A stretch of 39,610 nucleotides of DNA from Anaerolineae bacterium (lineage in GTDB: Bacteria; Chloroflexota; Anaerolineae; Epilineales; Epilineaceae). Where the stretch lies: the NCBI GenBank assembly GCA_029262755.1, contig JAJCYU010000275.1, positions 1 to 39,610 of the forward strand. The letters run 5' to 3'. The notes beneath the pieces are model-generated. The model was not told the DNA's origin. It saw only the letters and a list, made by a program, of their open reading frames with translations, and made no database searches. The stretch's first letter is position 1. Each line of letters opens with the position of its first letter. Below, one piece after another: positions 26,268 to 29,833 of this stretch. Made by a program: the position numbers and the translations under genes.

Positions 26268-28931
26268 CTAGCATTCCGAGTGGCCGCACGCGTAGCACTT
26301 CATGCAGCCCTCGACGCGGGCGAAGGTAGCTTGGTGGCACATCGGGCATAGATCCGCGCCCGGGACCGCCGGCGTTGCGCCGCCGACATCGGAGGCCTTC
26401 GCCTCCGGGGTCACCTGCTCGATGGTGTGCACGACCTCGTCGAAGAGGGCGGGCTGTGCGGCGGCGGCGGCCTTCACGTCCAGGTCCTCTTGCAAGGCCT
26501 GTCCGATCGCGTCGGGAATGGAGCGTACGCGGTCCGGACCGAAACCGACCTGGCGGCTGCCACCGATTCCGGCCAGCTCGCTGACCACCAACTTGAGGCG
26601 TTCCGCCGGCGGCAGAGGGCTGGGCATGCGCAGCAGCAAGCTGATGAGACGCCCGATTGCTTCCGCATCGGCTGCCAGATCGCTACCTGCCTTGCCGATG
26701 TTCACAAAGACCTCGAAGGGCTCCGTGCCTTCTACATGGTTGACCGTGACATAGGCCTTGCCCATCGGCGTATTGATGCGGTACGTGTCGCCGCTGGTCT
26801 GCGCCGGCCTCTGTCGTATCTCGCGGCTGAGCGCGGCGACATCCGCGGCTGCGGAGGCGACATCCGCAGCACTCTCGGCGGGGGAGTCGGCCACGTCTTC
26901 CGACGAGCGATCCAGGTGGAGCACCTGCTCGTCGCGGGATCCGTCGCGGTACACGGTGCCGCCCTTGCAGCCCATCTTGTACATATGCTCGTAGAGCTCG
27001 CGGGTTTCATCCAACGTGTACTCGTTGGGCACGTTGCAGGTTTTCGAGATGGCGGAGTCGATCCAGCGTTGGATCGCGGCCTGTGCACCGACGTGCTCGT
27101 GGGGCGTGAGCTCCATCGCGGTGACGAACTCGTTCGGGAGCTCTTCTTGGCCGGGGTTGGCCTCGTGCCACTCGCGCACGACGTCTACGCGTTCTTCGTG
27201 CCATCCGAGGCGGCTCTTGCGGAAGAACGACCAGGAGAAGAAGGGTTCGATGCCGGTCGAGGTACTGACCATCGTGCCCGTGGTACCGGTCGGGGCCTGC
27301 GTGAGCAGGGTGACGTTGCGCACTCCCTTGGCCCGGACGGACTCGCGAACGGCTTCGGGCATACCCTGCATGAAGCCGCTGGCAAGGAATGGCTCCGCTT
27401 CGAAGGCGGGGAAGGGTCCCTTTTCAGCCGCGATGTCGCTTGAGGTCATATAGGCCTGCGTCGCGATGAAGGCGTAGAGGCGCTCGCAGAATTGGTTGCC
27501 TTCCGGGCTCCCGTAGCGCACGCCGCAGCGGACCATCAGCTCGGCAAGGCCCATCGTGCCCATGCCGACCCGGCGCTCTGAGAGCTGTTGGTCCCGGTTC
27601 TCGTCGAAGAAATAGGGGGTCGTGTCGATCACGTTGTCTAGGAAGCGCACGGCGGCGCGTACGCCGCGGCCGAGCCCGTCCCAATCGACGTCGCCGTCCT
27701 GCGCAAAGCGGCCCAAGTTGAGCGCGCCGAGATTGCAAACGCCCCATGCGGGCAGCGGCTGCTCACCGCAAGGGTTTGTGCAGATCAGCGGCGAGAAGTA
27801 GTGCGAGTTGGCCATCTTGTTCGCGCGCTCGATAAACCACAGCCCCGGCTCGGCGCTGGCCCACGCGCTTTCGATAATCGTGTCCCACAGATCGCGTGCA
27901 CGGACCGTGTCGTGCGTGATCACGGGGCGACCGGCTTCGCGCCATGCACCGAGGTCGCCGTCCCATTCCGTGTCGTAATCCGGGTGCTGCGTGTCGGGGA
28001 ACACAAGGTCCCAGTCAGCGTCGGCTTCCACGGCCGCCATGAAATCGTCCGTGACACCGACGGAGATGTTGGCATTGGTGATGCGGCCCATCGTGCGCTT
28101 GGCGCTGATGAACTCCGCGATGTCGGGGTGCCAGATGTTGAGGATGAGCATCAACGCGCCACGCCGGCTGCCACCTTGCTCGATCAGCCCTGTCACGAAG
28201 CTGTACAGCGAGCCCCACGACACAGAACCGCTTGAACGGCCGTTGACACCGCGCACGTAGGCGTAGCGGGGACGCAGTGAAGCCAGGTTGATGCCGACGC
28301 CGCCACCGCGCGACATGATCTCGGTCATCTGGCTGAGCGTCTCGACAATGCCATCCCGCGAGTCCGTGGGGCTGGGAATGACATAACAGTTGTAGTAGGT
28401 CAGATCCTGCTCGGTTCCGGCGGCGGTCAGGATGCGACCGCCAGGCACGAACTTCCAACCTTCCAGCAGCCAGCGGAACTCGGCTTCCCAATGCTCCCTG
28501 AGCTCCGGTTTCTCGATGGCTGCGATGCCCGCGGCGACCCGTGCCTGCATCTGGTCGGGATGGGTCTCCAACGGGCGATCGACATGTTCGAGAGCCCGCT
28601 TCACGACCCGGCCATCGCCGAGCTCCACCTCGGCTTCGCCGTTCTCGATCCGCAGCACGGACCCGATCTCCCGTTGGCCCGTGTCGGCGTCGACACAGAC
28701 GACGACGATGTCGCCGGCACCAAGGTGTTCTTTCTCCATGTCCTTGAGCGCATAGCGGTCGAGAAAGATCTTCTCGCCGAGGTCGTTCAAGAAATTGGTG
28801 TCGCCTTCCGCAACGCGGCTACCGCTTTGCGGTGGAACGCTAGGCTGCATGCCGGCCCGGCCATTGGTCAGAGGCAACCCGCTGGGCAGTGAAGCCTTTG
28901 GGGTCGTGGGGTTGATGTGGAGATCGCTCAC
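26268..28931 (-). CDS. nrdJ: Adenosylcobalamin-dependent (class II) ribonucleoside-diphosphate reductase
   Basis: NrdJ makes deoxynucleotides with a B12-derived radical, independent of oxygen. 887 aa. Redox Cys182 (YYNCYVIPSP) and Cys399 (VCNLGALNL) flank the active site NPCGE with Asn386, thiyl-radical Cys388 and Glu390. Residues 70-120 form a small beta-rich insertion (GDIVVVCVDADTGQREIGSV). QAPTGTTGTMV is the phosphate loop. A TSCPD-type domain follows (about 710-790), and the C terminus has the Cys pairs CPMC and CMKCYACGHSEC, which shuttle reducing equivalents or bind zinc. No N-terminal ATP-cone is seen. The GTG at 28931 has GGAGG five bases upstream. It lies 99 bp downstream of nrdR, probably co-transcribed. 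No cobalamin riboswitch is recognisable in that gap. Confidence 0.97.
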   Translation of the reverse strand: MSDLHINPTTPKASLPSGLPLTNGRAGMQPSVPPQSGSRVAEGDTNFLNDLGEKIFLDRYALKDMEKEHLGAGDIVVVCVDADTGQREIGSVLRIENGEAEVELGDGRVVKRALEHVDRPLETHPDQMQARVAAGIAAIEKPELREHWEAEFRWLLEGWKFVPGGRILTAAGTEQDLTYYNCYVIPSPTDSRDGIVETLSQMTEIMSRGGGVGINLASLRPRYAYVRGVNGRSSGSVSWGSLYSFVTGLIEQGGSRRGALMLILNIWHPDIAEFISAKRTMGRITNANISVGVTDDFMAAVEADADWDLVFPDTQHPDYDTEWDGDLGAWREAGRPVITHDTVRARDLWDTIIESAWASAEPGLWFIERANKMANSHYFSPLICTNPCGEQPLPAWGVCNLGALNLGRFAQDGDVDWDGLGRGVRAAVRFLDNVIDTTPYFFDENRDQQLSERRVGMGTMGLAELMVRCGVRYGSPEGNQFCERLYAFIATQAYMTSSDIAAEKGPFPAFEAEPFLASGFMQGMPEAVRESVRAKGVRNVTLLTQAPTGTTGTMVSTSTGIEPFFSWSFFRKSRLGWHEERVDVVREWHEANPGQEELPNEFVTAMELTPHEHVGAQAAIQRWIDSAISKTCNVPNEYTLDETRELYEHMYKMGCKGGTVYRDGSRDEQVLHLDRSSEDVADSPAESAADVASAAADVAALSREIRQRPAQTSGDTYRINTPMGKAYVTVNHVEGTEPFEVFVNIGKAGSDLAADAEAIGRLISLLLRMPSPLPPAERLKLVVSELAGIGGSRQVGFGPDRVRSIPDAIGQALQEDLDVKAAAAAQPALFDEVVHTIEQVTPEAKASDVGGATPAVPGADLCPMCHQATFARVEGCMKCYACGHSEC

Positions 28932-29519: not shown

Positions 29520-29587
29520 GCGACGCTCCTGGGAACGAGCGAACCAGGACCGAAATTGGGCGGCCTGGCGGGTGGTTGGGGATATCG

Positions 29588-29641
29588 TGTGGACAACAAT
29601 GGGTCAGACGGTGGATGATCCTGTGGACAAGCCGTGGACGA
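29588..29641. promoter_or_regulatory. DnaA-box-like cluster in the nrdR-nrdJ leader
   Basis: TGTGGACAA, the complement of the DnaA box TTGTCCACA typical of GC-rich bacteria, occurs exactly at 29588-29596 and 29622-29630. A 7-of-9 match (CGTGGACGA) follows at 29633-29641. All have the same orientation. They lie downstream of the predicted start site, within the leader. Confidence 0.5.
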
Positions 29642-29678
29642 CCGAGACCCCGCATGTAGGGGGGCTGGACGAAGGACT

Positions 29679-29694
29679 CCACCATATGTTGTGG
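29679..29694. promoter_or_regulatory. NrdR-box-like palindrome
   Basis: CCACCATATGTTGTGG matches the published NrdR consensus (acaCwAtATaTwGtgt) at 12 of 16 positions and is itself nearly palindromic. It covers roughly +6 to +21 of the predicted nrdR transcript. NrdR usually binds two boxes; a second good one at 31 bp centre-to-centre spacing is not seen. Confidence 0.6.
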
Positions 29695-29706
29695 CCCGAC
29701 CCGGCG

Positions 29707-29715
29707 ATTCTATCA
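29707..29715 (-). promoter_or_regulatory. Extended -10 element of the nrdR-nrdJ promoter
   Basis: On the minus strand TGATAGAAT matches TGnTATAAT at all but one position. Transcription would begin near 29700, about 180 bases before nrdR. No good -35 at 17 bases, as is common for extended -10 promoters. Confidence 0.55.
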
Positions 29716-29776
29716 CAGGCACCCGACGCACCGCAACCGCATTTCTTGGCCGAACGTCACGACCGCGTCACAGGAA

Positions 29777-29833
29777 AGCGAACGCGAGCACGGCCACGGG
29801 AAACACATCCCCATGGCCGTGCAAGCGTTCGCT
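29777..29833 (-). terminator. Intrinsic terminator downstream of ftsZ
   Basis: A long hairpin: 29777-29785 pairs with 29825-29833 (nine perfect pairs), two mismatches, then 29788-29796 with 29814-29822 (nine pairs), one mismatch, and GGG with CCC around a nine-base loop. On the minus strand, the direction of ftsZ, it is followed by a short T-rich stretch (TTTCCT). It starts about 32 bases after the ftsZ stop and probably ends the dcw transcript and insulates nrdR. Confidence 0.75.

Follow-up and report, generated by a model that had tools for sequence, protein, structure and literature searches.

A conserved NrdR promoter and a candidate lineage-specific DnaA-box array in the nrdR-nrdJ leader of an Anaerolineae bacterium

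The DNA analysed here, referred to as the window, is a stretch of 39,610 nucleotides corresponding to contig C275 of the Anaerolineae draft genome G000 (5.06 Mb, 428 contigs). The gene order on its minus strand is ftsW, murG, murC-murB, ftsA, ftsZ, a gap of 345 bp, nrdR and nrdJ (Table 1). The nrdR product is identified as NrdR, a repressor with a Zn-ribbon and an ATP-cone, by its match to TIGR00244 over residues 1-144 of 162. The motifs RRRR and VVDTR are also evident on direct reading of the protein, and its closest named relatives come from draft genomes that bear the labels 'bacterium UCB3', Anaerolineales and Dehalococcoidia, which points to the Chloroflexota as the probable phylum. The gene nrdJ lies downstream of nrdR after a gap of 99 bp, and the two genes probably constitute one operon. 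Many of the NrdJ frames found across the class are 1100-2098 aa long and show split profile matches, which suggests the presence of inteins. The hairpin between ftsZ and the nrdR promoter may serve as a terminator.

Table 1. Genes and sequence elements of the nrdR-nrdJ region (window positions)
Feature	Position	Strand	Evidence
nrdJ, class II (adenosylcobalamin-dependent) ribonucleotide reductase	26268..28931	-	TIGR02504, 568 bits, above cut-off
nrdR, transcriptional repressor NrdR, 162 aa	29031..29519	-	TIGR00244, E 1.6e-51, above cut-off
Degenerate DnaA box ATATCCCCA, 2 mismatches, 2-bp gap to the exact box at 29588..29596	29577..29585	-	sequence
Exact DnaA-type box TTGTCCACA, second copy	29588..29596	-	sequence
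Degenerate DnaA box TCATCCACC, 2 mismatches, 3-bp gap to the exact box at 29622..29630	29610..29618	-	sequence
Exact DnaA-type box TTGTCCACA	29622..29630	-	sequence
Degenerate DnaA box TCGTCCACG, 2 mismatches, 2-bp gap to the exact box at 29622..29630	29633..29641	-	sequence
NrdR box 2 CCCCTACATGCGGGGT, 32 bp from box 1, 16-bp gap	29647..29662	-	PWM, 6.3 bits; C4/G13 kept
NrdR box 1 CCACAACATATGGTGG	29679..29694	-	PWM from relatives, 20.4 bits; C4/G13 kept
Extended -10 TGATAGAAT, hexamer TAGAAT at 29707-29712	29707..29715	-	sequence; motif TGNTANNNT in relatives
Candidate -35 TTGCGG, weak, 18-bp spacer	29731..29736	-	sequence; inferred
Hairpin past the ftsZ stop (29865), without U-run	29790..29820	-	sequence

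An earlier note on this DNA had pointed to an extended -10 element, one NrdR-box-like palindrome matching at 12 of 16 positions and two copies of TTGTCCACA. All of these words are present on the minus strand at the positions given, although their distance from the nrdR start codon (29519) is up to about 196 bp and thus exceeds the 130 bp named in the note. The palindrome is confirmed as NrdR box 1, and a second box that the note had missed follows it, so that the leader carries a pair of palindromic boxes separated by a gap within 15-17 bp, each with C4 and G13. The boxes were scored with a position weight matrix made from the relatives, the genomes of the same family being left out. When the 345-bp intergenic region was shuffled 3000 times with its dinucleotides preserved, neither the score of box 1 nor that of the pair was ever reached. 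Box 2 is weak and now GC-rich, resembling box 2 of genome G005 (CCCCAATATATGGGGT); the chance of reaching its score over the three allowed spacings is about 0.0006 according to the matrix. In other phyla, a gap of 15-17 bp between NrdR boxes is functional (PMC12051234, PMC9110341) and represses in vivo (PMC12051234). A study on Streptomyces coelicolor reports that the conserved C and G of the NrdR box are essential there, and that NrdR autoregulates the class II nrdR-nrdJ operon of this organism through two boxes (PMC9110341). As described there, the boxes of the S. coelicolor nrdRJ promoter lie three helical turns apart with a C/G pair in each, as they do in the window; the window differs in that its box 2 has drifted to a GC-rich sequence and its pair is located downstream of the extended -10.

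The same arrangement is found throughout the class. The nrdR leaders of the window and 29 relatives (n = 30) were scored for NrdR pairs, and 28 of the 30, the window included, contain a box pair with a period of 31-33 bp and a pair score of at least 18. An extended -10 is located directly upstream of the pair in 25 of these 28 leaders, and in most relatives box 1 is preceded by the motif TGNTANNNT at a distance of 16-28 bp. The extended -10 is at position -21 from box 1 both in the window and in G002, a genome of the same family with two weaker NrdR boxes 32 bp apart. Scoring detected no NrdR pair in the nrdR leader of G001, the other genome of this family, and no NrdR box was seen by eye at its separate nrdJ gene. 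The retention of the extended -10 and the tandem NrdR boxes across the class makes NrdR autoregulation of the class II ribonucleotide reductase operon well supported. NrdR control of nrdR-nrdJ, which the earlier note had proposed and for which the TIGR00244 protein also speaks, thus appears, with strong support from the compared sequences, to be class-wide and ordinary. A TTTTAAGG/C-like motif precedes the nrdR promoter in 17 of the 30 leaders (L103, L105-L110, L117-L119, L121-L122 and others) and is absent in the window.

Downstream of the NrdR boxes lies an array of five DnaA-type boxes. Two of these are the exact words already noticed; the other three are degenerate boxes, where the note had listed one near match. 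The boxes are arranged with gaps of 2-3 bp as TCGTCCACG-gc-TTGTCCACA-gga-TCATCCACC and TTGTCCACA-cg-ATATCCCCA. DnaA ChIP-seq in E. coli has shown binding mainly at double boxes with a 2-3 bp gap, including those at nrdA and nrdD (PMC11317965). Two TTRTCCACA words, a pattern picked after the fact, never appeared together in the 3000 shuffled versions of the 345-bp intergenic region (mean 0.004 per shuffle). Boxes with at most two mismatches occupy three of the eight possible partner positions at a 2-3 bp gap, 0.0022 being expected per position; the probability is about 1e-4 for two such partners and lower for the three seen. The exact TTRTCCACA words located inside genes have no partner boxes at this gap. 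A three-core phased box pattern was also considered as a signature of the array and was rejected as not distinctive, with two matches against one in the reversed control.

Whether TTGTCCACA is a plausible target of DnaA in this organism can be judged from its origin of replication. The dnaA gene is located at G000:C380:14066-15466, and the intergenic region between dnaA and the pyruvate kinase gene pyk, the probable oriC, contains TTATCCACA, TTATCCCCA-type and TTGTCCACAATCCACAG boxes and uses TTGTCCACA. G000 and G001 share both the layout and the type of box in this region, each using TTGTCCACA and TTATCCACA, and the region of G002 is similar. The comparison with the genome's own oriC that the earlier note had suggested therefore comes out in its favour, and TTGTCCACA is a credible DnaA box in G000. 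The DnaA protein aligns well to a bacterial DnaA of solved structure over the whole AAA+ and DNA-binding part, and its domain IV retains RDHTT in the alignment. The genome contains three copies of the sequence GAACAYRTGTTC; two of them (G000:C380:13953 and G000:C380:15881) flank dnaA, and one of these two lies inside oriC beside TTATCCACA. Since lexA of G000 (G000:C205:29064) has GAACACCTGTTC about 53 bp upstream, the GAACAYRTGTTC sites look like SOS boxes. No SOS-like box of this type was seen at dnaA of G001 or G002.

Box clustering in G000 was judged from pattern listings. The 5.06-Mb genome contains 23 exact TTRTCCACA words, from which chance alone would yield about 0.005 pairs within 50 bp. 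Outside oriC, pairs of exact boxes are found in two places, the nrdR leader and the ssb-mraZ intergenic region. At the latter site (G000:C359:24041-24093; G002:C39:44406) a DnaA box lies inside the conserved sequence TTTTAAGSTTTAGTTRTCCACA; it was not found in G001, G003, G004 or G005 and is common to two genera only. The mraZ leader (L014, about 1620-1655) also contains TGGGA-N5-TGGGG-N5-TGGGA, which we take to be the known MraZ autoregulatory repeat pattern. A further candidate DnaA locus outside oriC is an array of DnaA-type boxes upstream of a pentapeptide-repeat gene, again present in two genera (G000:C183:6654 and G002:C11:14391); in G000, CCACTATATCTAGGTG, which resembles an NrdR half-palindrome, lies directly downstream of it. 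Since G000 and G002 have both the box at ssb-mraZ and the array at the pentapeptide-repeat gene in common, boxes outside oriC can be conserved in this family.

The array at nrdR does not share this conservation. No exact TTRTCCACA was found in the 400 bp before nrdR in any of the 29 relatives, including both same-family genomes, which represent different genera. When one mismatch was allowed, a single weak match in reverse orientation was obtained in one of the 29 leaders, so the expectation that the words would recur in related genomes failed. Among the genomes compared, all of them from other genera, the array is confined to G000. DnaA control of nrdRJ is thus at best recent and private to the lineage. 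Exact direct TTRTCCACA pairs were found in 59 of 100 genomes of the class, the reversed-pattern control being nearly empty, and 40 of the 66 class-wide pairs are separated from dnaA by more than 3 kb or by a contig boundary, with varied genes as their neighbours. Some of these may reflect an oriC located away from dnaA, and such pairs seem to arise and move within the class. As many of them adjoin unrelated genes, nearness to nrdR alone is no proof of regulation. The only near case is a direct TTATCCACA pair between ftsA and ftsZ at G046:C39:38229, in a cluster that also contains nrdR; the gene follows about 1.5 kb further along that contig. The leaders and the positions of nrdR and nrdJ relative to the class-wide pairs led to the rejection of ancestral DnaA control of nrdRJ.

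We consider it reasonably probable that a conserved NrdR promoter has recently received, in this lineage, an array of DnaA boxes that is bound by DnaA and lowers nrdRJ transcription. The nrdR and nrdJ genes would be transcribed from their own extended -10 promoter and repressed by NrdR, as the conservation supports. If transcription is taken to start about 7 nt past the -10, the NrdR boxes extend from about +6 to +53 and the DnaA array begins at about +60. DnaA would then bind the five boxes at roughly 60 nt into the leader and beyond, where it would form an obstacle or crowd the NrdR-promoter complex, resulting in lower nrdR-nrdJ transcription, the direction of the effect being uncertain. Binding of DnaA to the array is most likely, as judged from the boxes, and a roadblock action is suggested by their position. 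A protein bound to the array would not occupy the place of a classical activator, which is upstream of the promoter, and damped elongation or aid to a repressive complex is therefore likelier. In this way the output of the class II enzyme would be tied to the level of DnaA or DnaA-ATP. The joint NrdR and DnaA control put forward earlier is thus plausible in view of the box grammar, the rarity of the pairs and the conserved ssb-mraZ box, but the 29 leaders show that it is not ancestral.

One of the closest known parallels is nrdAB of E. coli, whose promoter likewise has NrdR boxes together with a DnaA double box of 2-3 bp spacing around the start site (PMC11317965, PMC8203912, PMC12176259). There, high DnaA-ATP represses and lower levels activate (PMC8203912). 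The E. coli boxes belong to the promoter region of an operon for a class Ia enzyme, whereas the array described here occupies the leader of an operon for a class II enzyme and is confined to one lineage. The available text on the S. coelicolor nrdRJ promoter describes no DnaA boxes (PMC9110341), in contrast to the array found here. Boxes near a gene may also be without effect: three DnaA boxes upstream of ftsZ in E. coli are irrelevant to ftsZ transcription (PMC8203912).

The array could alternatively be a titration or reactivation site, comparable to datA or DARS, that lies in the roomy ftsZ-nrdR intergenic region and binds DnaA without regulating nrdRJ. Like datA and DARS of E. coli, it is a cluster of DnaA boxes outside oriC with 2-3 bp spacing; unlike them it sits in a transcribed leader. 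Similar arrays adjoin genes without an evident replication role, namely the pentapeptide-repeat gene on contig C183, where the array is conserved in G002, and one on contig C210; across the class, pairs of boxes at a distance from dnaA are frequent. The array is, however, located between promoter and start codon and not in neutral sequence, and the two non-oriC exact pairs of the genome, at nrdR and ssb-mraZ, are a biased sample. We regard this explanation as rather unlikely. It is distinctly unlikely that NrdR alone matters and that the TTGTCCACA words are neutral or arose by chance. Conservation of the array in no relative and the poor distinctiveness of the three-core phased pattern would fit such an origin; two exact boxes in one leader never appeared in the shuffles, and the partner boxes at 2-3 bp gaps are too improbable to agree with it easily. 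The location of the repeats in the predicted 5' leader of an operon for an adenosylcobalamin-dependent enzyme would also be compatible with an RNA element such as a riboswitch or an attenuator. The leader has no Rfam match at the gathering or a relaxed threshold, the two poor hits being within or downstream of nrdR, and its folding is not unusual (z -1.18). This highly improbable explanation was rejected on these results.

Control of ribonucleotide reductase by DnaA is known for the class Ia operon nrdAB of E. coli, and DnaA binding has been found upstream of the class III gene nrdD (PMC11317965). If the favoured reading of a recently added, DnaA-bound array is true, a class II NrdR operon whose DnaA boxes were gained in a single genus-level lineage would represent an independent case of coupling between DnaA and ribonucleotide reductase, and the nrdRJ leader would show how promoters gain DnaA input. 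A broader proposal, which we make only tentatively and consider doubtful, is that the lineage recently placed its class II operon under DnaA through a five-box array in the leader of an otherwise ordinary NrdR promoter, in addition to a DnaA-boxed ssb-mraZ region, and that the initiator thereby coordinates dNTP supply, single-strand binding protein and the division cluster. Together, oriC, ssb-mraZ, the pentapeptide-repeat gene and nrdRJ would form a small candidate set of DnaA-box sites in a little-studied lineage.
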